Positions 1 through 45,243 of a stretch of DNA of 64,000 nucleotides are shown piece by piece; within the stretch, counting starts at the first letter, position 1; the number at the start of each line of letters is the position of its first letter. This stretch comes from Polychytrium aggregatum. Lineage: Eukaryota; Chytridiomycota; Chytridiomycetes; Polychytriales. The position numbers and the translations under genes are program-made. The notes beneath the pieces are model-generated. The model saw nothing but the letters and a program-made list of their open reading frames with translations. It was not told the origin of the DNA and ran no database searches. The DNA lies in contig NW_026516220.1 of assembly GCF_025602895.1 (NCBI RefSeq), forward strand, positions 496,001 through 560,000, given 5' to 3'.

Positions 1-3000
1 GAAATGAATTGAGATATTTTGCCAAAGCCTGCACATGGGGAAAGCTAATCAGCATTCCAATCTCCAGGTGCATCAAGAGTGAGCATCATCTCAGCGCGTG
101 CAAATGTACCTTTGTGGGCGGAAGCGAGGCAGTGGCATGGACCATGGCTCGCCAGCCCAAAGTTTGGATCTGGTCCCAGCTATCCTCAAGAGGTTGGGCA
201 AGAGAAGGACTGTCCATCAGCCGTGTCCAAAGGAGACATATACGATTCCCCAATGGCAGCAAGTCTGTCGCGGCTCCCCACATCATCCCAAGCATACCCG
301 GACGGAACTTCCTTTGGCACGGAAACCTGCTTGCAGATCTGCACCAAGATTTCGTCGCGGAGCTCTGGGAACTTGATCCCGTATTCCATGATAGCCTGGA
401 TCGAGATGGAAAAGTCGTCTTGCTTCTTGCTGGACGGATCGAGGCATTTCAGGAGCACTGGATCAGACGAAGTGACGTGGACGAGGTCAGTCTCCAGAGT
501 GAAATATGGGCTCATTGGCTCCCTGTTTGGCCAAGTGGATTTCGTTTCGTTTCGTTGGCACTATATAGTGCTACACTGCGCTGTACAGTGCTTCATTCCC
601 TGGCTCGACTCCACATACGCTTGAAGCACTCGATCGCAGCATTGACGAGCAGATCGCTTCGCTCCGGCATTTTCGTGAGACTCATTTGGATGGGTGTCTG
701 CAAGGAGAACGGTGGTCGCCATCGTATGAGTGGGCCTTGAGCGCCATAACGGGACGATGAAAAGATGTGCAACCAGCGATTGGGGGCTGTGTCCGAGCCC
801 CATCCAACCCATGACGCCGATGCCATTCAGCCCATCATTGATCGGCCCCATCCAATCTGCATGGCATATGTGTTACGGTGGATGTCTCAACCAAACAAAC
901 CCACTTTGGAGTACTTGAGAAGTTCAGAGAGCTCGATTGGGACCATTTTGATCTTCTTGCTGATCGTCGCAAACGCACTGAGTGGCCTGTAGTGAGTCTG
1001 GAGGCAGGCGGTCATTCAGTGGCGGAATACATGTGGCACTATTCCGCTCAGAGCGTCGCTGTAGCATGCGACATCAACTTTTAGCGTCACGACATCACCA
1101 CTCAGCATCAGACACGCACCTCAAAGTTTTTCTCGGCAAAGATTTCGAGCAGGTAGTCGTCCTGAACCTTTCCTTCGAGGCTGGTGAGCGATCCCTGGAT
1201 AGCATTACACCGAGTCAGCATCCAAATTGCAGAGGGGAAGAGTACTGGCCATGTGCAATATGTCCTCGTTGGCGCCGGAAGCAGTACGTGATGTGCGAGC
1301 GCGGAGGGGGGGTACGTGTGCTCACCATTTCTTCGTTGGCTTTCTTGGCCAGGGGGTTGGACCTCATCTGCTTGGGAGGCGGCGGTGGCGGTGGAGCTAA
1401 AACAATATCAATGGGCTCGGCAGCCGGCGGAGCACCCGACTCGATAGTATCCGCAGCCTGGATGTTGGGCGCAACCTGACTGCCCTTGGACAAGTCCAGC
1501 TGGCTTCCGATCGACTTTGACGACGGTATGGCCTTGACCTGCGCTGGGGGTGGAGCGGGGCGCTTGGGAGGGCTGGTGAAGAGAGAGTCGATTTCCGAGC
1601 TCAGCTCGGCCGCCATCTGAGCCAAAATATCTGCCCCTTGGATCCGCGACTGGGCAAATGCATTGTCGTAGTCGCCAAGGAACGAGAACAAGTTGTCGAG
1701 AGGGGCAGCCTCCTCGGACACTGCTTGAGGTTCGGCTGTTCCAGCGACAGCAGAAGCGGCAGCACCCTCCTTGAGCGCTTCGGGTCGTCCGGCCTTGGCT
1801 ATGTTGGGTGCTTGAGCAGGTTTGGGCGGCACTCCCTCCTTTGCAGCGGGTTGTTTGGAAGTAGCAGCAACTGCAGTCTGGTGCTCCTGAGAAATCAGCA
1901 GAATCAGCGGCCGATGCTGGAGTGCTCTGCATTCGCCTGTATCCTTGACCAAATCACAAGGCCTCTATGCAACGGAATCATCTTTCGCCCCAGCTACAAC
2001 GAGAGAACTGAGTCTGGCGGCGCTGTAGCTGTAGCGTCGGCAGCTGGAGATGGCACGGGGCAGGACGACTCACCCTGGTCTTGGCTGCGATAGCAAACTG
2101 CTTGAGTTGCTGCATATGCAAACAGGCGAGCATGCGTGAAACGGGTGAGCGATCACAGATATCGGATGTCTCGAATCAACGAGTCGTACGCAAGCACCAT
2201 GCCAGGTTGGTGCGTTCCGTGACAGGCTTCGGCGCTATCCACAAACAGAATCAATAGCGGGCCTAGGAACAAGCATGCGGCTTCGCGCACCTGCTCTTCC
2301 TCGGCGCTCTGGTTCTTCTTGTCCGATGCGGCTTTCTGCTTCTCAAAGGCAGCTTGAGTTGACTTTGCAAGCTCCTGTGCTTCTTTGTCTGCCTTGCGCT
2401 TCTCTTCAAGCAGAGTTCTGTAATAGTCGCGAGCAAACCACCCACGAACGACTGGATGTACATCAAGGTGAGCGATACATTACAGAGAGTTGGGTATCGG
2501 GACCGGAACGGTACCCACGCTGGACGTGCAAGATGCGCTGGGCATTGACATCAAAGCGACATTTCTGACTCAATACTCACCGCTCTGAATGAGAATGACA
2601 GCCTTTCGGATCTTGAGGTAGCGACGACGGAAGTAAAAGCCGACGCAGACTATGTAGATGTTTGTGATGAGCAGGAATCGACTTGGCCGAGCATAGAGAG
2701 CACTATGAACGCCCTCTCGCTCAGCCTTGCTATGGCGATCCCCTCTGCCACCCGCCGATCAGAAATCAATCGCACTTACATTTCTGGATAACCTTGATGC
2801 TGGCCCTCATTCTTGTGTACTTTTTCTTGCACACGTATCCACGCATTACTCTTTGAATCAGCAGGATCTTGACCTTCATGATCTTGTCGGCCTCGGCCTG
2901 AAGCGCCTCCATCTATACGAGCGAGGACCAGCATCAGGTCAAAGGATTGAGTGCGACTCGGCCCGCTCTTGGAAAGGATCAGGGACCGATACTCACAGCC

Positions 3001-6000
3001 TCCATGCGCATGAAGAGTTTAGTCTTGCCGCACTGCCACAGGTCCGAGGAAATATTGGCCCCAGACATGATGGCAACAGAGAGTTGCTGAGGGTTGTCCT
3101 TTGGAGACATGCCTGGCGGGATCAGGCACTTGTAGCTAGATTGCGATACGGACGACGGAGGTGTGGCACGCATGTCGTCATGAGTACGTGAGCGGGCCGG
3201 CTCGTCAGCACTGGCGTCGCCTGCAAAGTGACTCCTACCTCTTGGGAATCTGGTCAAACGGGAGACGCATGGGATATCCCGCCTTTCGGATGCGGATCGT
3301 ATCGAGCATACCCGAGTATCGTAGCTGGGCTGGATCGAGAGATGAACATGCGATCGAATCAGCAATGGCGACCACGCGACAATCAATCTGCTACTGTACG
3401 GCATTCGCAGCATCCGCTATGAAAAGGACAGCGTTCTAACGACGCTGGGGGTCCACGAGGGAACCTACACAAAACCATCTGGTCGTCAAACACAAAGGCT
3501 TCCTTCTGCATGTTGGGCTTGATGCAGCGCACATAGTGCGGCATGGTCGATCCCAGGGTGGTGACAAGCGACACTAGCTGGTTGCGGAAGTATGCACCCG
3601 CCGTGATTTTGCCGCCTGCCTTGCCCGCAGGGGCCCCTTTTCCACCGCCGCTGGGCTCTTCTGCCTTCTGGGGGAAAATCCGGGCGACGAGCTTGTAGCT
3701 TGAGGTTCGCAATAGGTCGTATATCTCATCCTGGATCGCATCCTTGTTCTTCTCCAGGAAAGAAACGACGACGTAGGTCACCTAGACGATAAGTCATACA
3801 AGTCAGCGATGTAATCCCTCCCCCCTCCCTTGACAGGACTGCTTCGCACTCTGGTCCGTCATGCTGCAGCAGCCGCATGCGTCGGCTCGACGGTTACCGT
3901 TCCGGCATAATGCTTCACTCCAAACACGCCCTTTTGTGTTCGAGCCTTGACATAGTGCGGGTTCTTGATAAGGCCTTGGTCCATCTTCTGGAGCCAGCCA
4001 TCATCAGATCCCTTTGGAAACTTTGTTTCTTCGTCGAGCAGCGCCAATACGCCTGCAGGCTTGGCCTGCAATGCAAGTGGCGTCGTTTGTCTGTGAGTTA
4101 CAACGGCAGTCGAAAGTTTGTCGAGCCGACACTTGCAGACAGAACATTACCTCAATCAGATCAAGACACAGCTGGTTGTCGGTAAAGGTGATCTTGCTCC
4201 ACTTGATGGCTTCTTTGTCGTACTATGTAGCGCAAGCGAGCAGGCGTTGCACATGCACAGTTCAATGGCATGTTTTGATTGGTTGGTTGTCCGTCTGTGT
4301 TTCTATCTGTCCGTCTGTGTTTCTGTCTGTCCGTCTGTGTTTCTGTCTGTCTGGGAAAGCTCCAGGGTTTCACCGTGTAAACGTGCCGCTCACCTCCTCC
4401 TGCTCCAGTTTGAATATGAACTGGTTGAAGAACTGCTGGAGCTTTTCATTGGTGTAGTTGATGCAGAACTGCTCAAAGCTGTTGATCTGGTCGAGGAGAA
4501 AAGCGATGCAGTATCGACGGGGATGGTATTAGCACAAAGCCCAGCTGGCACGCGATCCAATCTTGCTGAGCATGACCTACCGCAAAGTCTGTCAGAGGTT
4601 GCCGCATGGCGGTACAAAAGTCAGCAACGGGGCTGTGTCAGATCATTTGTGGAAACACTGTGATACACGAACAGCTGTGGTGGAGCTCAAAGCCGCACCT
4701 TCAAAGCCAAAAATATCGAGCACACCGACAAACTTGGCCGAGGCCTGCTTGGTCTTCAGGGCTTGATTGATGAACTCGACAATGCGCTGGAACAGATTGT
4801 CGTAGATGGCCTTGGCGATCGAGTCGCGGTTGTCGGTCGCCTGCAATTTGTAAGCAGCCATGTCCAGACGTGAGCCAAGGCGGGTTGCTGGATCCATCAG
4901 AGAGGCGCCGCGGTATCCTATCGGCAGAGTGTCCGCGGGCTCTCGTGTAGGGGGCAATAATGAGACGCCGACATGCTGTGCTCATACCTGGGATCCTTTC
5001 AGAGGAACCATGGTCACATCTCCGCGAACAACAAGGCGTCGGAAGCACAGCGCCTCGGCAAGCTTCTCAGCGTTCACGCCGAGAAGCTTCGCGACCAGAT
5101 CGACGACCGATCGATCCTTGATGGAGACGGTATTGTCCTTGGCGGCGTCTTGGTCAAAGGCAATGTTGCCGACCCAAAGGATTGCGGAGAGCGTTCGCAT
5201 GGTGCTCTCGATGTCCTCGGTCTCCATTTTAAGGACGGTGAAGGCAAGCTTGAGCTTTTCAAAGTTCTTTTCGTCGGACACGCCATGGAGATCGATGCAT
5301 CCGCTCTGGCTCATGTAATAGTACGCCTCAGGGTCCTCGATACTGTACTTTGACCTTTCGTCCTCGTTGGAGCCACGCAGAAGCTCGTAAAAGACGTGGT
5401 AGTTCCTCTCTGTCTTGGCCTGCTTGACGACACGCGATTTCTCGAGAAGGTAGTTGATAATGCCGGCGCCGATGATGCGGGTATTTTTGTCAAAATGGAT
5501 TTGAATGAACTTGCCAAAGCGCGAGGAGTTGTTGTTGCGGACAGTTTTGGCATTTCCTGGCGGGACATGCAGCGAGAGACATGAGTGCCGGGTGGGAGGG
5601 GTCAGCAAAATGGCGATGTGGGTGAGGGGCAAAGCAGGTGTTCAATGATCAGCCTCAACGCCGGTGACAATGAGATGAGCAGCGTTTGGCTCAGATAGCT
5701 GTTCATAACTGGGGGTTGTGTGGCACGATGTGATATCGAGACAGCTTTGACGGTGGGGTCGGTGTTAACACTCACCAAAGCTCTCAAGCACAGTGTTGGC
5801 TTCCAGGATTTGCTGCTCGACCCACGACTCTTGCGACTGCGTCGAAGTAACAAAGGTCAAGTACTGCAGAATCAGCTTGGTGCTCTCGCTCTTGCCAGCT
5901 CCAGATTCGCCGCTGATGATCACAGCTTGGTTGCCTTTCCCGTTCTTGACGTTTCCATAAGCTTGCTCAGCAATGGCAAAGATGTGTGGAGGCCGATCGA

Positions 6001-6813
6001 GCAGCCGCTTGGCCTGGTATGTCTTCATGTTGTTCTGGTTGGGAAGGGGCACGTTGCCGAGCAGGTGTCAGCGGATGCGGCATGGCAGTCTCGCTGACGG
6101 AGGATTTTTCTGAACGACCACATAAGCACACTAAGGGGCAGGCTGCCCTGTCAGAGGCATCTTACCAGACTGTAGATCTCGAGGTTCTCAAACGGATTCA
6201 TGGCAACCAGAATCGATCCAGTGAACGTCTGTGCAGCGCGAGCAAGAGCTAAGTGATGGAGGCTCGTGTGGCCGTGCTGGCGGCTGTGACGGTCACGCCG
6301 TGAACGATGCTGAGTGGGCTGCGAGTGGCCAAGCCCATGCTATGCCATCAAGTAGCGAATGTGCATGTGGCAGATGTAGAATGGCTTGGCTGGCGCTGAG
6401 ATTGAAACTGCGACTGCGATTGCAACTGCGAGTTTCGGCAGAGTTCCGGGCGGAGATGAATGGATTCCAGCGCCAGGGGGCGAGACTTACATAGATTCTC
6501 CGTTGATCGTAGCGGATTCTCAAGTTTTCCATAATCGCTTCCTCTGTCAGCTCCGTCAGGGTGGTCATGTCACCAACCCCGATTCCCTCTGAGCGTGTGC
6601 ATCCGAGGCCACACAGCGTGATGCGTCGGCAGCGAGCGACACCGGAGCAGCGGCAGGAAGGGAATGAGTACCTGCAACGACATACTATGATGGGTATGCA
6701 CCTGGACAAGGATGCCAGCAGGCGTGGGTGGTATTGACGACGTAGGGCAGTGTACACAGCGCGGGTAGTATAGCCAGAACACGACTCGTACCGCTGAATT
6801 CTGCGTCGGCCAT
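1..6813 (-). CDS. Unconventional myosin with MyTH4 tail (3' end beyond window)
   Basis: Actin-based motor; 23 exons in the window, about 1167 residues, open at the left edge. Exons (minus): 6813-6792, 6588-6491, 6228-6166, 6034-5776, 5556-4988, 4840-4699, 4588-4581, 4486-4394, 4222-4151, 4065-3898, 3781-3469, 3329-3239, 3135-2997, 2912-2780, 2649-2581, 2451-2291, 2109-2074, 1886-1326, 1194-1120, 997-905, 697-619, 457-298, 179-110, 28-1. Phases agree throughout. The motor (about 1-680) has P-loop GESGAGKS near 103, switch [10 protein letters not shown] near 155 and switch II DIFGFEDF near 379; it lacks an N-terminal SH3-like domain. The TEDS position is Asp. Three IQ motifs follow, then a charged helix, a linker with [11 protein letters not shown], a run of prolines, and a MyTH4 domain from about residue 999 ([14 protein letters not shown]). 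A FERM domain probably follows outside the window. Class not assigned. Confidence 0.93.
4290..4349. repeat. 3 x 20-bp tandem repeat in a myosin intron
   Basis: Three near-identical 20-bp units rich in CTGT/CCGT, one with a single A/G difference, inside the intron between 4393 and 4223. On the myosin sense strand the array reads purine/A-C rich. No coding role. Confidence 0.85.
4581..4588 (-). other. 8-nt microexon in the myosin switch II region
   Basis: The preceding exon ends in phase 1 inside the switch II motif DIFGFE, and the next begins [15 protein letters not shown]. Between them an AG acceptor (4590-4589) and a GTAGGT donor (from 4580) bracket ACTTTGCG, which supplies Asp-Phe-Ala and restores the invariant DIFGFEDFA-NSFEQ sequence. 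Without these eight bases the frame is lost. Flanking introns are 110 and 94 nt. Confidence 0.88.
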
Positions 6814-8088
6814 TGCGTCGGTCTGGTCGTGGGAAATGCAGAGATGCTGTGGGCAACAAGGCGGGTCAGTGCTTTTGCGGGATCAGCTGGGACGGCGGCT
6901 TGTGGGATGACTCAAATCTCAGAGCCAGAGAAACAAATGGATGTTGTAGGGAGTCTGGGAACGGATGGAGTTTTGTTTTTATTTTATAGGATGCACTGAG
7001 TGAGCGACGGATCTGCTGCGGCTGGAGCCGTGGGAAGCCCAGAGTGATGTCATTGAACTCTGGTCGAATGATTGGGAGGAGCAGGGTGCGAAGGGCGGTG
7101 TGGCAATAGTGCGACGACGACGGCCGAGAGGGGAAGCCGCAGAGATGATGTGAGAAGCTGTGTGTGGTGTATGGTGGTGTATGGTGGTGTATGGTGGTGT
7201 ATGGTGGTGTATGGTGGTGTATGGTGGTGTATGGTGGTGTATGGTGGTGTATGGTGGTGTATGGTGGTGTATGGTGGTGTATGGTGGTGTATGGTGGTGT
7301 ATGGTGGTGTTGGGAGATGCAGAGAGATGCAGAGAGATGCAGGGAGATGCAAAGGAGGTTGGCAGCGCGCGGGTGGGGGCAGGGCTGTGTGTGTGTGGGC
7401 TGTGGAGTTGCTGGTGCCTGCGTGCACTGAACAGCGCGACGACACGGCACAGAACGCGGCACCGACACAGAACGCAGTCGCACACACACACGTGCGGGCC
7501 GCACAGCAACAACAGCGACAGCAACAACGGCAGCCATCCACAGCAGCGACACACACACACGCGCGCGGCACATGTCTCCTCCTCGCATGAGCGAGACGGC
7601 CAATCCTCTTCTCGCCGCGCCTCGCCTCGCCGCCTGCGGTCTTTGCATTTTTATGCCCGTTTTGCCCTCCGGCCCTGGTCGATCCTCGATCAACCTGCCC
7701 ACTCCAGCGATCTGCTCGTCCTCTCCTTCCCCCCCGTCGTCCCTGCCGTCTGCCCAGTGCTCCGTCTCTGTTGCACCCCAGGGCCGACGAGTTCGATTCC
7801 TCCGCTTCGGGTTGTTCTCGCCGCCAAGCCCTCAGCGCCGTTTCTCCCCCTTCTGTCTCCCTCCGATTGTGGCCCTGCGGACATCATCCCGCCTTTTTTC
7901 CAGAGTCCTGTGTTCGATCGCCAGAGCCCAGAGCCCAGCACCCGCGCTCTCGCTGCTGTATATTGTCTCCTGTCGTTAGCGCTAGATCCCTTCTGTATTT
8001 ATTAGGACTTTCTCGTCCACCCTTTGATCCATCGCATCTGCTCTTTGCCTCGTTCCCGTTGTGTCCCTGATTGTTCTCGGTTGTTGCC
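6814..8088. promoter_or_regulatory. Divergent promoter region, myosin (-) and zinc-knuckle gene (+)
   Basis: 1.27 kb between two divergent start codons, so it must hold both 5' regions. It contains the 10-bp repeat array at 7171-7350 and a C/T-rich stretch near 7600-8088 leading to the plus-strand gene. I see no convincing TATA box. Long ORFs here on both strands are repeat or compositional artefacts. Confidence 0.6.
7171..7350. repeat. 14 x 10-bp minisatellite plus adjoining 10-bp repeat
   Basis: Fourteen exact copies of ATGGTGGTGT run from 7171 to 7310. They are followed without a gap by about four copies of a different decamer (agagagatgc type) to 7350. The array is strongly G/T versus A/C asymmetric. 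It lies within the myosin 5' region, about 360 to 540 bp upstream of that start codon. Confidence 0.97.
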
Positions 8089-11000
8089 ATGTTCGCCGCC
8101 ATTCCAAACAGAGTCTCCCAGTCGGTCTGCAGGACCGTCAAGCCTCCAAAGGCCCACCCGACGCCCTCATCGTTCTCGTCGTCGTCGGGCTCGGTGGCCT
8201 CGATCTCGACCCCGTCCAACATCATCGGCGACCCCACCAAGCCGGCCTCGTCCAGATCCTCGGTTCGTTCCTCGACTCTGTCCCGTGCCGACGATGCCAT
8301 CAAGCCATTCCCACCCAAGGTAATTGCTGCTTGCCGGCGGACCCCCACCCGGCTTGGTCGCTCTCGCCACAGGAGGGCTCTGACTCATCCCTCGGCCTGC
8401 GCCAGCCACCTGTTTCTTCCTCTCACCCCAACCATCCTGCTCGCCGTCTCGTTGCCTTGCATCAACTTCGCTGCCGACCCCACATCCCGCACCCGTCGCT
8501 CATGCACGCTATGCACGCCATACTCGCTCCGACGCAGTCCCGTCCGCCGCTGCTGCCATTTCCGCTTGCACTCATTCATATCATTGTGCTACAGGAACGG
8601 GATTCGTTGCTCATGAAGCGAACCATATCCTCTCCGCCGGCTCTCTTTGCTGCCCCTATTCCTGTCTCGGCCCCGGTGCCGACTCCAGCTCCGACCATCG
8701 CTGTCGTCGAGCCTACGCCTTCGCGTGCTCCCGTCCGACCCCAGCGACGTCCGTCGAACATCTCAAAGCTGGATTCCCATCATCGCTTTGCCTCAAAGTA
8801 CCGACTGCACACTGCCAACGCCAACAACGTCCCGACGAAGCAGCAGCAGCGACATGCTTCCACTGCGTCGGCCTCGCCCGCGACCCCTCCCTCCTCGAAG
8901 AAAAAGTCGACTGGTCTGCTTTGCAGTGTCTGTGGTCTCACCGGCCACTCCCACCGATCGTGCCCCACCAAGCAGCGCCCTGCCGAGTCCCTGCGCACCC
9001 CAAAGGGCAAGGCCTTTGCGTCCTCCTCGGCAGCCAAAGTCGAGGCCAAGATTCGCTCTGTCCAGACGACGGCCCCAGTCAAGGACGCTCTCGCCAAAGG
9101 CAGCAGTGCCCCCAGCCCGCCAGCTGCTGCTGCTACTGCTGCCGTCGCGTCCTCAGATGCCGATTCCCAGTATCTCGCGGCCACATCTCTCTTTGTCACA
9201 AGACTCATCCACATGGAGCCGGAGACGCAGCTGTTTGCGTCTGTCATGGCCACCCCGGGCGCCGAGACCACTCCGGAGTCGCAGGCAGTCCCCAGCCCGG
9301 CGCCTGCAGCTGATCCCGCCCTGGACTCGCTCTCCTCCTCGACGGAAAGTGTGCCGCCTCCCGTGCCTGAGAAAGACACACCTCCCGCAAAGCAGGTTGT
9401 GTTTCCCACTCTCTCTTTCCTCAAGGCCGATATTGCGCTGCAGCACTCGCTTGGTGCCGTCCAAAAGGTCTACGGCGAGCCCTTGGAGTCGCCCGTAGCT
9501 ACCAGCAGCCCCGCTACGGCCGCTTTGGCACACGGATCGACTATCGCAGAGACAACAGCACCCCGTCCCGAGGCCTCTGCCAAGGACCACCTCGACTCGT
9601 CCGCTACTGATCTCCGGCTCACCGATGCGACTCCCAGTAGCATCATCCCAACAGAAGTCGCTTCTGGAGCCCACTCGCTGATCAATGCTCCCCGCGTCGC
9701 CTCAGATATCATGGTGCCTCCCAAGGTCGAGACTGCCCTTGCCACCCCGACCCGCAGCGCCGCTAATCTTCCGGCAGTTCAGCGCACTTTCCCGGTGTCG
9801 CTCGAGTTGGGCAGCAGTATCCAGCACCGTGTCTCGCTTGTCCCACTCGTGCCCATGGCCAGCCATCTGGCTATCGTTGAGCCTGTCCCTACCGCTGTGG
9901 CTCTGCAGCCCACTGCCGAGGCATTCCTCACAGTCGAGCCAGCCCTGCCGCTTTCGCATGATTTGGTTGGCGCCGAGCCTGCTTCGGCAGCCGTCACTGC
10001 ACCAGTGAGCATCCTGATCGAGCCCAAGGTCGACATGCCATCGCAGGCCCCGTCCATGCCATCGGCTGCAGCACTGGTCGAAGAGCCGTCCCGGATCTCT
10101 CCTCGGGCCTCTGTCGGCAAGCAACGCAGACGCCTCTTCCGTGATCAAAGTCACGTTCCTCTGCGCCGCCTCACCGTCGCGGATATTCAGCAACGCTTTG
10201 TGAACGATACAGTGTTCCATCGCATGATAGGCAAGGCTCTCAGCGTCGTCCATCGCCCATTCAACCGCAAGGATCGCGCACAACCGGCCGAAAAGGCCAG
10301 TGCAAGTGCCCCCATAGATTCGAAGCTTATATTCAAGCCCCTGCGCAAGCCCAAAGCTGTCCGGCCCAAGCCCAAGCAGCTGGCGCTCGACTTTTTGCCG
10401 CCCTCGATATTCCAAATCAAGCCCATCCGAACAGCGCCCATCGCTCAGCGCTTGCCCACTCCTCCCCTGGAGTTCCTCTCGCTGTCGCCCCTGTCGCTCC
10501 TTCCCAACAAGCCCTTCCGCAGTCCCCAGAAGGGCATTGCTCCTCGCCGACCCAATGCGTTGGCTCATCCGCTGCTCCGTGAAACCGGCGTTGGGCTTTT
10601 GCGGACCCCTTCGGCGACGAACTTGGCGTCCGTGCGACCCCCGAAATCCCTCGGGCTCTCGATCTTTGCCCAGGTCTCGAGCGAGTTCCTGATGTCGAAC
10701 CATGACGGCCCCATCGGACCCAAGTCCTTCACCCTGCCCGGCTCACTGGACCCAGTCCAGCTGGGCTCTCGCAAGAAATCCAATCGCCCCAGCTTCGAAG
10801 CCCGTCCGTTCCTGCTGCCTGTCCATGAGCAGCTCAAGTATTTCCCCCACCAGTCCCGCGTATGTATTGCCAGCGCAGCGGATTGCGTGCCATACGATTT
10901 TATGTTTCCGGAGTCGCTGCATCTATCCGCCCTTTCTGCTTCAATCTGCTCGGCTCGCCCTGCGTGCCCAACTGGTTACCTCTGACAACAGCGCTTCCTG

Positions 11001-40902: not shown

Positions 40903-42858
40903 ATGCTGTCCGATCCCCCCAATCTCGCTTCCCTTCCGACGATCACCCTTCCCTCGGAGCCACCCGACGATACTCTCTCAGGATCGGCCCGCTCTTCGGT
41001 CTCGTCGATAGCGCCGTCCTTCATCGCTCCATCACGCACCCGACATGGCCTTTTGCGCGAGGAGTCCCATCCTGGCTCGCCGCCATTCTCGAATCAACCT
41101 GTCAAGGACAGCCCCACGTCGTCGGGGAGCTCGGGCTCGAGTAGTCCGTCTCGCGAGCTATCGTCTTCCGAAGACCTCAACATCGCGGCGCAGCGACAGC
41201 CGCCTCTGAATCTACTCACGGCGACCCCATGGAACATTAGCCGACTGGTGCTGCGGCTGGGACCCGTTGTGGATGCCTTTGATATTGCGGTCGATGTGCT
41301 GCTCTGGACGTATCCCTTCCGAACCGGCATGATCTGTATTGGCTGGATTGTTCTCTGTGAGTAACATGGATGGGGCACGCAGTGGCTTCCTTGAAACTTC
41401 CCACGGCCCAGCCGCATTGGCTCGCTTTCGCTGTTTGGTGCCTTCGAGCCTCGTTTCTCCAGTCGATGCAATCGATGCAACGAGCACCACCGCACTCATT
41501 CGCATCCATTCTACAACTTTTACTCACTTTCATCTGCTCTAACAACGACTACGGCTCTCGTTCTCTCCCGGCACCCACCCAGGCACCTATCCCATCCTGG
41601 GCTTCATTATCCCACAAGCGTGCCTGATCCTCTATATGCTGAGCAGATACAAGACCTCCAGCCATCGTCGTCCGCTCCCAACGCCGCCCATCGAAGAGCT
41701 CGAAAGAGTAACCTCGAGCACTAGTCTCCTCAGCTCCATACCAACCGTCAATCACCAGCAGTACCAGAAAAACCTCAAATTCATGCAGAATCTCATGGTG
41801 ATCTACTGCGACCTCTACGATCGGGCTGCGGCAGTCCACCAGACCCTGGACTGGCACGATTCGGAACTGACCACCCGATGGCTTCGAGTCATTGCCCTTG
41901 CCATTCCGATGGCTTACGCCGTCGTCCTGGTTGTGCCTGTGAGGACCATCGTGATGGTGGCCGGATTGATGGTCCTGATGATGCACACATCGCTCTTTAG
42001 GACACTGATGATGGTGCTGCCGTCGTTCATCTGGAAGCGTCTGGTCAACTGGACCAGCAGACTGATACGAACCTTCCCGGCCCCGGACTCTGCCGTGGAC
42101 CTGGGTGTGGTCGATGACTTTGAGGGAGCAACCCCAGAAGAGGAGAAGGCCAAGTCCGAGACGATGGCCGTCGATGTCTATGAGAACCAACGCTGGTGGA
42201 ATGGTATGAACTTCGAGATCGCCAGTGTTCATGTTGGGATGGCGTCGAGCGTCACCGAAGAGATGCGAGTGCGTCTGGCAAGGCCCATTGTGATTGACAA
42301 GGCCTGTTATGAGCACTCTGCCAATCCCTAGTGGTGATTCATCGTTTACCGACTCGTCTTTCTGCTTCTTCATCCGTCCATCTGTCCACCCCCCGCCAGA
42401 GTCTGGATGGGCCGCCCGGCTGCTCAAGTCCGAGCGCCCTTGTTGGAGCGATGTCACCGGCAAACTCACTCGCCATCCCAAGTCGCTGATTGAGCTTCCC
42501 TCCAAGGACTGGGTCTGGGCGACCGAGTGGGTCGTCGACCGCGAGTGGTACCCCTGCGATAATGATGGATGGGTCTACAGGTGAGCGAACCCGATTCCAG
42601 CAGCCGTTGGCGATGCAGAGGCACCTTCCTATCCGACACAGACACAGCCCAAACTGCATCCGCTGCGCCGACACTCACCTTGGCTCTGCCTTCTACTTAT
42701 TTTCTTCCATGCACTCTCCAAACTCGCCGTCCGCCAGCGATCACAACTGGAAGAACGAAACTGAGGGCCAGTGCATCACTTCGCTGACCAGGAGGAGACG
42801 CTGGGTGCGTTCAATGAGGCCTGTCGATGGATCAAAAAAGACCACCCATCTTGACTAG
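40903..42858 (+). CDS. Pex30/Pex24-type DysF membrane protein, copy A
   Basis: 458 aa in four exons: 40903-41356, 41583-42203, 42400-42580, 42738-42858 (459 codons). Ser-rich N-terminus, then PFRTGMICIGWIVLC plus GFIIPQACLILYML (reticulon-like hydrophobic hairpin) and a second pair WLRVIALAIPMAYAVVLVV and IVMVAGLMVLMMHTSLF. The C-terminal peroxin/dysferlin domain has the typical Trp-rich elements: CWSDVTGK, SKDWVWATEWVVD, DNDGWVY and RRRRWVRSMRP. Yeast Pex30-family proteins sit in the ER membrane and shape sites where peroxisomes and lipid droplets form. The start is the first ATG after a long ATG-poor leader. The downstream neighbour is a paralogue. Confidence 0.85.
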
Positions 42859-43452
42859 ACACTGCAGCAGCGAAAGTACTGCTTCTGGGCCTATCCCATC
42901 CCGTATGTGACGAAGCCGACCGGCAGCGCCGATGATACCGTGCATCCAAGAAATGCATCCCTCCCCCGGCTGTTGATCATTCCTTTTCTGTTCTTGGGTG
43001 AATACACTGCGTGCTGACCGTGGCTGTGACCATCCGCCGATATCCGATCGATTCGGTCCTGATAGCGAGGCTTGTGGGTGATATCGACATGCTCCTCCGC
43101 AACCGATACGCTGCTCTCTCGTTGAAGGCTTTCGCCTTTGCCCTGGGTGTATCAGCCTCCCCAGTCCCACCGCTGCTCCATGCCTCCCCTCCCCAAAACA
43201 GACAGATGGTACTGGGCCCACCGACAGACCCATCCGCACAAATCCATCCGCACAGACCCATCCGCACAGAGAGGATAGTCCGATACCCTGGACTCGGGGG
43301 CCGCCGACAGACTCCGACATCAACTCCGATCGTATCCGCCGCTCTCTTCGTCCCGCCAGTCCCTTGAATAAATAGCCATCCGCTGTCCAGACCCTCCTTC
43401 CATCGCTTCAGCTCGCTCCCCCTTCTTCCCGGCCCTAAGCACTCTCGCCGCC
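42859..43452. other. Gap between the tandem Pex30-like genes
   Basis: 594 bp with the copy A 3' UTR and copy B promoter. Contains repeated ccatccgcac units (43227-43268) and an A/T-rich AATAAATAG at about 43367-43375, 78 bp before the copy B ATG, a possible TATA element. Confidence 0.55.
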
Positions 43453-45243
43453 ATGAGCTCTCTAAAGCACTCAGATCAATGTCTGCCTCCATTTGCCTCG
43501 GCTGTGGCCGGCCAGCATCCATCGGCTGACATCTTCAGCCGCGACGCTGATCTGAATCAGCCCCGATTCAACCCGACCAAGCCCACCCAGGTGCTCGCCA
43601 TCAACACCTCGCATCTCTGCAACAGTCGGCTGCGAATGACGGCTCAATACTGGATCGACGTTTTGCAATGGAAGAATCCGCTCCGTAGCACGGCAATCTC
43701 ACTCGCTTGGATGGTCCTCTGTAAGTGCGATCGCTTCCGCCATCGGGGCTGTTTCCGCTCTGAACCTCGGTCAAGCTGCATGCATTTCGGACAAACTTGC
43801 CCCTTAGCTACGCCACTGTACTTGTTTTTGGCAATGCCGTGCGAGTATCCTGCCATCCCCGAGAACGTCATCCGCGCGGCTCGATAACCCATCGATCTGT
43901 CTCCAGGCATATTCCCAAACCTGTGGTTCATCGCTCCACAGATCTTTGTCATATTTTGGATCGCTGTCAGGCGGCTCTCCATCAAATCCAACGCTGCACG
44001 CTCCGCGGACACTCCGGCCCAAGCCGGCGGGAAGCTCGGGGCCTCCAGGACTGCAAAGCGATCCATGCTCTCTGGCGCGATCGACGAGGCCGAAACGACA
44101 AGGAATATCGAAGGATACAACAATCTGGTGTTTGTGCAGGATTTGGTCGACAACCTCCTCGGCGGACTCGTGCGAGCTCACAACCTCCTGGATTCGATCG
44201 ACTGGTCCAACAGCGAGCGCATGGGCCAGTGGATCCAGCTGTCGCTCCTCGGCATCCTCGCTGTCTATTTCATCAATCTGGCTGTCCCTGCAAGAGTGAT
44301 CGTCATGGCTGCGGGGCTGCTCCCGCTCTGGTACCACACCACTCTGGTGCAGTTGCTGCTGGCACTGCTTCCCACCAAGACCTTCCAGGTAATGGCTATC
44401 ACAGCCATCGGCCTTGACAACAACAAGAAGCCGTCTCATTCCGCTGTCGGCGATGTCGATACCGATGCCGACTCGGCCGTCGAGCTGTCACATAGCGACG
44501 ATGACTCGGGTCCAACCCAGTCAAACCGCATCACCATCGACGTCTTTGAAAACCAGCGCTGGACAAGTAAGTCTATCGCTGGCACGAGTGCAGATCCAAC
44601 AAGATACATGCAATGCTGCGTTGTCGAACATGCACTTTTGTGACAGCGGCTAGGGGACGAGATTTCGCCGCTCACTCGATACACGCCTGATACCTGTTTC
44701 AGATTTCAAGTGGACCTCTCGTCTTGGTCCGAACGAGCGAGCCAGCTGGAGTGACAGAACGGGCAAGATTCAGCAACCATCGAGATCCACGATCGAACTG
44801 CCATCGGATGAGTGGCGATGGGACGGCGAATGGGAGATGGATTGCAAGTGGGGCGAATGCGACCAGAACGGGTGGCAATACAGGTATGCGGATCAGTTAC
44901 GCTGCCGAGCTTTGCAGAGACGCTGCAAAAACACAACGCCGCTTGGTTGACGATGATATTGGTGTTGTCTTGGCTTTGACTGACTGGCTGACTGACTGAC
45001 TGAATGAATGAATGACTGGGCGCTGGTGCTGACGTCGCCTCGGCTCGCAATCTACCTTGCTTTGGCAATCTCGTCACCCAACCAAACCATAGTGATCACC
45101 ACTGGCAGTGCCCAAGTCCCACCCAGCTGATTGTCTCGCTCACAAGACGGAAGAGATGGATTCGGTCCATGATCCGAGTCGACTGCCCCAGCAGCGACTT
45201 GTCGTTCAACTCAGGCTCGACCTCGGACGACAACAGCGACTAG
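43453..45243 (+). CDS. Pex30/Pex24-type DysF membrane protein, copy B
   Basis: 419 aa in four exons: 43453-43720, 43907-44566, 44703-44883, 45093-45243 (420 codons). Same plan as copy A: NPLRSTAISLAWMVLC, then a hydrophobic segment WFIAPQIFVIFWIAV, a paired segment WIQLSLLGILAVYFINLAV plus VIVMAAGLLPLWYH, an acidic spacer, and a DysF domain with SWSDRTGK, SDEWRWDGEWEMD, DQNGWQY and RRKRWIRSM, and an acidic Ser/Asp tail. Intron phases equal those of copy A (1, 1, 2), and exon 3 is 181 nt in both. Sequence divergence is large, so the duplication is old. Likely an ER membrane protein of the same class, possibly with a different partner. Confidence 0.85.

Follow-up and report, generated by a model that had tools for sequence, protein, structure and literature searches.

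A myosin gene with two MyTH4-FERM units, probably of class XXII, in what appears to be an early-diverging zoosporic fungus

Class XXII myosins are described by Sebe-Pedros et al. (2014, PMC3942036) as carrying an IQ, two MyTH4 and two FERM domains, with an RA domain between the first MyTH4 and the first FERM, and the same account places the class in the chytrid Spizellomyces and in several holozoans. A later study confirms class 22 in "several fungal lineages" and counts Dictyostelium MyoI among its members (Kollmar and Muehlhausen 2017, PMC5583752). In the account of Torruella et al. (2018, PMC6299283), an aphelid has both class XXII and class XV, the latter also being present in Gonapodya and nucleariids; the fungal myosin families are named there as If, II, V and XVII, and classes XV and XXII are given as lost in fungi except chytrids. 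An older survey lists Chytridiomycota with the four common classes only (PMC2375034).

We analyzed a window of 64,000 nucleotides, the whole stretch C90:496001-560000, in which window base 1 is C90:496001. The assembly from which it comes totals 64.7 Mb in 418 contigs. At the left edge of the window, we identified part of a myosin gene whose tail, followed into the flanking DNA, holds two MyTH4-FERM units.

Structure of the gene and its tail

The window part of the gene lies on the minus strand, and a splice model of 24 exons reads 1,167 residues without a stop (Table 1). Exon borders were picked by eye from GT-AG borders and phase; all 23 introns are GT-AG, measure 81-262 nt, and are consistent in phase. 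These introns interrupt the open frames; unspliced, the minus-strand frames give motor fragments and a 28-residue MyTH4 fragment. In the spliced protein, the Pfam Myosin_head model matches at 825 bits over profile positions 2-679 of 679. The IQ cores stand at residues 698, 721, and 744, with a spacing of 23 residues, and one of the three is reported by Pfam (IQ, 29.9 bits, residues 738-758). The motif LDNLFSFLG is found at residue 875 and PPPPPPPK at residue 977, and the TEDS-site residue, read by eye, is presumably an acidic D. The first MyTH4 domain, clipped by the window edge, scores 42.7 bits against a cut-off of 27 over profile positions 1-62 of 105, and the coverage becomes 1-105 of 105 when the flank is added. 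Its best PDB match is 5ejy, named "Myosin-I heavy chain" (E 1.7e-4), which we take to be Dictyostelium MyoI.

The original prediction had named a motor, three IQ motifs, a polyproline linker, and a MyTH4 core from the letters of the window, and all four are confirmed by the 24-exon model, the Pfam matches, and the motif positions. The resemblance it had seen between the linker and filopodial myosins found no support, the one PDB match (E 1.8) being to an unrelated enzyme. Just upstream of the myosin start, window 7164-7310 holds 14.7 perfect copies of the 10-base unit GTGGTGTATG, a repeat that accounts for the many short self-matches in the window-versus-contig comparison.

Table 1. Features of the myosin gene inside the window (window coordinates)
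Feature	Position	Strand	Remarks
MyTH4-FERM myosin gene, 5' part	1..6813	-	24 exons; Met codon 6811-6813; open at window edge
Complete myosin motor, exons 2-13	3006..6574	-	residues 13-676; P-loop GESGAGKS; limits from exon lengths
Microexon 7, 8 nt	4581..4588	-	required for reading DIFGFEDFAINSFEQF
Neck, exons 14-16	2291..2912	-	three IQ cores and beginning of charged stretch
Ala/Pro-rich linker, exon 18	1326..1886	-	includes run of seven prolines
First MyTH4 domain, exons 19-24	1..1194	-	residues 1000-1167; Pfam match 1101-1167; window part only

To the left of the window, the gene extends for another 5.3 kb and ends at a TGA stop at C90:490702-490704 (minus strand). A FERM domain had been predicted to be worth seeking in this direction, and two were found beyond the window edge. 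An own-genome profile search placed MyTH4 (PF00784) at C90:496318-496401 and 492643-492945, and FERM_M (PF00373) at C90:494795-494965, 494473-494718, and 491334-491627. Every one of these matches lies on the minus strand, and along the DNA the gene runs motor, three IQ, linker, MyTH4, FERM, MyTH4, FERM. The tail was joined by a simple exon-chain program, which recovers 20 of the 23 hand-made exons; since it was trained on the hand-picked window introns it is not independent of them, and this applies equally to its picking of the 8-nt microexon 7. The program spliced over the true TGA stop and continued into the next genes; the last exon itself reads into the TGA. The modelled protein comes to 2,101 residues (1,167 + 934), which is somewhat short because the program omitted a piece of the F1 lobe of the first FERM that is visible on a separate ORF. 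From this model, we infer that both MyTH4-FERM units probably share one transcript with the motor. The next minus-strand reading past the myosin stop (L012 ORF 4134-4604) looks cytochrome-b5-like by eye (MSVKIFEWSEVEKHNTRDDCWMVIDGKVYDCSKF).

In the spliced tail, Pfam finds two stretches each of MyTH4, RA_2, FERM_M, and IRS/PTB. The exon after the first MyTH4 carries RA_2 (PF21989; 32.6 bits, cut-off 27), and the ORF that follows holds what remains of this lobe (18.3 bits). The RA model PF00788 passes in the second tail unit only, with RA_2 instead in the first, and an own-genome search with PF00788 gave C68 as its sole match. Against the PDB, the second tail unit has 11 matches at E<=0.001, and each of them carries the name myosin-X, VIIa, VIIb, or "Myosin-I heavy chain", the last of these ranking fifth. 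No SH3 was found in the spliced tail at E<=0.5 (Pfam), nor at E<=1 in any of the 12 minus-strand ORFs of at least 35 aa between the first FERM and the second MyTH4; the only match in the ORFs between the two units is to a viral domain at E 0.15, below the cut-off. A separate PH match is likewise absent from the tail in Pfam, where PH-like models fall only on a FERM F3 lobe and PH_SLA1 is below the cut-off.

Class of the motor and rival readings

Among the best 60 of 151 PDB matches (phmmer), the motor scores highest against myosin X (589.6 bits) and VIIa (586 bits), followed by 7dhw, which we take to be a class XI myosin (571.1), and by II (568.5), V (555.5), XV (553.8), and I (530.6). Identity is highest with VIIa (45%) and X (44%), stands at 43% for each of XI, V, and II, and drops to 41% with XV and 37% with I; with a range of 37-45% across the classes, identity alone settles little. 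Shared residues do not discriminate either, with 5 of 9 for X, VII, and XV together versus 5 of 10 for XI, V, and II.

In a motor tree of 18 rows, the query lies outside the clades of class I (support 97/94), class II (100/100), class V (100/100), and class XVII (100/99), which bears out the earlier expectation of a motor foreign to these four classes. This tree takes in ten motor loci of the same genome, stitched from tblastn pieces with stops written as X; second locus copies (C364, C391, C190, C60, and C91) and the metagenomic locus L001 were left out of the trees. A grouping of the query with X, VII, and XV appears in the 13-row tree at a support of 56/48 and is absent from the 8-, 12-, and 18-row trees, in which the query stands alone. 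Holding it with these three classes together is not rejected (p-AU 0.284 in the 8-row tree and 0.208 in the 12-row tree), and none of the three is rejected singly (0.129 for X, 0.125 for VII, and 0.0834 for XV, 8-row tree). Placement with class V gives p-AU values of 0.0289, 0.0722, and 0.023 in the 8-, 12-, and 13-row trees, and with class II values of 0.0422, 0.0238, and 0.0355; placement with class XI gives 0.0714 and 0.0483 in the 8- and 12-row trees. The 8-, 12-, and 13-row trees do not reject class I as the sister group of the query (0.236, 0.321, and 0.468), nor does the 18-row tree reject a grouping with the five class XVII rows (0.387). To judge by the motor sequences, a stem position beside class I or XVII is not rejected. 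As a member of class I, II, V, or XVII the motor is rejected, the query standing outside those clades and having a MyTH4-FERM tail.

The motor trees thus tell which clades the query stands outside, and the kind of myosin is read from the tail. Tail order and published range together make it very likely that the gene encodes a fungal class XXII myosin, in a comparison whose trees hold no class XXII motors. Our confidence is slightly reduced because PF00788 passes at the second unit only; the query also has three IQ cores in place of "an IQ".

A class XV-type fungal myosin, like that of the chytrid Gonapodya and nucleariids, would also bring two MyTH4 domains, and class XV is published for Gonapodya, nucleariids, and Paraphelidium (PMC6299283). 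In the published description, however, its tails have a single FERM together with an SH3 (PMC3942036), whereas the query has two FERM domains and no SH3 was found in it. Among the best 60 of 151 PDB matches, the Myo15 motor scores under those of Myo10, Myo7a, and classes II and V, and holding the query together with XV makes the 8-row tree 5.4 log units worse, which is not a rejection (p-AU 0.083). We consider this reading improbable, and slightly more so the reading of the gene as a class VII-type myosin or as a separate MyTH4-FERM lineage that is non-orthologous to class XXII. Motor identity does peak at Myo7a, at 45%, and class VII shares the two MyTH4 and two FERM domains, but class VII is described as holozoan only and with an SH3 (PMC3942036), which was not found in the query, and forcing the query with VIIa is 10.1 log units worse (p-AU 0.125, not rejected, 8-row tree).

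The range of class XXII in fungi is patchy in print (PMC6299283), as might be expected had the gene been acquired from another eukaryote by transfer. This we hold to be very improbable, as the published presence of the class in chytrids, an aphelid, holozoans, and amoebozoans fits loss better (PMC3942036, PMC5583752, PMC6299283), and the gene, with 23 introns in its window part, is embedded in an 839-kb contig. For a class XXII myosin, retention by descent is our preferred origin, a preference founded on where the class has been reported in print rather than on a phylogeny.

Genomic setting

Elsewhere in the assembly there are five divergent motor loci (C2, C4, C46, C388, and C408). In all five, Chitin_synth_2 comes next on the same strand, an arrangement of the class XVII type, and we infer that each pair is one gene; of 14 bacterial control genomes, 4 also give a match to the Chitin_synth_2 Pfam model by itself. 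The best tblastn pieces of these motors are about 23-33% identical to a reference. Together, the five loci look like a class XVII expansion. By best tblastn query, the other motors are of class II (C223), class I (C235), and class V (C1, C169, and C179), and each of them falls in its own class in the 18-row tree. Flagellar families are also present, with best scores of 115.4 bits for DM10 and 83.9 bits for IFT46 and matches in 0 of the 14 control genomes; the organism therefore has flagellar genes. Class XVII-type and flagellar genes together fit best with a zoosporic early-diverging fungus. A possible alternative is an aphelid-like relative of fungi; an aphelid would likewise have a flagellum, a class XXII myosin, and chitin synthases. 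Aphelids are reported to have chitin synthases of the same family (PMC6299283), and one class XVII-like myosin is described in the holozoan Corallochytrium (PMC3942036). The original prediction had left two readings, an acquired gene or an ancestral opisthokont MyTH4 myosin retained by an early-diverging fungus, and the second is supported by the class XVII-type loci, the flagellar families, and the tail of two MyTH4 and two FERM domains. It had also allowed for a non-fungal contig, which we reject; the five motor and chitin synthase loci argue against it, and no sign of such a contig was seen.

Among the neighbours of the myosin in the window are an M20 peptidase, DUF2009, DUF952, a core histone that by eye is H3, and, from families found mainly in fungi, DUF6604 and two pieces of Pex24p. 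Separated by about 1.6 kb within window 41543-44640 on the plus strand, the two Pex24p pieces cover one and the same section of the profile and are possibly a tandem pair. Rfam gave nothing above the gathering score in the window, and a tRNA scan of the window, run with the bacterial code, found none.

An own-genome search found no second MyTH4 myosin among the best candidates scored. C35 and C319 were considered for this role and rejected, as the 66 Myosin_head matches include neither of them. At C35:658001-668000, positions 4670-5372 hold a motor-less MyTH4 (66 bits) and then a weak RhoGAP match (E 0.032, below the cut-off), with a WW-like stretch seen by eye upstream of the MyTH4. Animal WW-MyTH4-RhoGAP proteins resemble this gene. 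Aligned over 4,611 bases, the C35 and C319 stretches share 99.96% identity, and C91:1-7194 repeats window 1807-9000 with 1 mismatch (99.986%, the first 9 kb of each compared). Many loci lie on two contigs, with identities above 99.9% in both pairs compared (C90/C91 and C35/C319). Given such near-identical contig pairs, the paired matches look like assembly copies, either redundant contigs or two near-identical haplotypes.

In genome and viral contig collections, relatives of the motor were found at 3 loci, all in one Verrucomicrobiaceae MAG from a pond. In the best of them (L001), repeated PH-like stretches follow the motor, by eye. These myosin contigs (L001-L003) are probably eukaryotic contamination of the MAG.

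Possible function and comparison with described myosins

Dictyostelium Myo7 is described as a tail-inhibited MyTH4-FERM motor that is released on VASP-built actin and then makes filopodia (PMC8352590). The myosin described here may work along similar lines, as an ATP-driven class XXII motor on actin with a three-IQ lever, a proline-rich hinge, and two MyTH4-FERM units. Calmodulin-like light chains would bind the three IQ sites, and, by analogy with Dictyostelium Myo7 and Myo10, the tail may fold back and keep the motor inactive. Release might occur at the cortex on parallel actin, where the motor would swing on cortical actin and the FERM lobes could then bind membrane partners or cargo. The motor may in this way build or load actin protrusions or adhesion sites, most likely those of the zoospore. 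A partner in actin assembly might be recruited through the polyproline run; lying between the neck and the first MyTH4, the linker could bind profilin, EVH1, or SH3 partners. A zoospore motor of filopodial type with regulation of its own, in which the three-IQ lever and the polyproline linker tie the motor directly to actin assembly, is an idea we regard as doubtful. In the passages of the literature surveyed, we found no description of such regulation by a polyproline linker and three IQ sites for class XXII.

As class XXII is in print for Spizellomyces, fungal lineages, and an aphelid, a kept ancestral myosin is the published expectation, and with MyTH4-FERM myosins already published in chytrids and aphelids, most of the surprise is gone. 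The accepted picture of fungal myosins is unchanged. The gene, which is well assembled, is one more piece of evidence for MyTH4-FERM myosins having been retained in flagellate fungi and their relatives and lost in other fungi. Set beside the class I, II, V, and XVII loci that accompany it in the genome, it offers a reference for tracing the simplification of fungal actin motors, and it is a candidate gene for actin protrusions in zoospores.

Compared with class XVII, whose tail is a chitin synthase, the query has a different tail, and the five class XVII motors form a clade (100/99) without it. The best motor bit score, 589.6, is to myosin X, but Myo10 carries two PH domains, one MyTH4, and one FERM, whereas the query has two MyTH4 and two FERM domains. 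Class XV has two MyTH4, one FERM, and one SH3, in contrast to the two FERM domains of the query and the SH3 not found in it. Myosin VII comes closer, with the top motor identity (45%, Myo7a) and the same two MyTH4 and two FERM domains, but it carries a tail SH3, which sits between its two MyTH4-FERM units, and none was found in the query. The amoebozoan Dictyostelium Myo7/MyoI (class 22) likewise has two MyTH4-FERM units, a comparison made by tail and not by motor. Opisthokont class XXII has as its carriers Spizellomyces punctatus, Paraphelidium tribonemae, filastereans, choanoflagellates, sponges, and Drosophila. The query differs from the class as described in its three IQ cores, in its long Ala/Pro-rich linker, and in matching RA_2 at the first unit in place of PF00788; like it, the query has a motor, an IQ neck, and two MyTH4 and two FERM domains, with no SH3 found, and possibly shares an RA-like lobe between the first MyTH4 and the first FERM.
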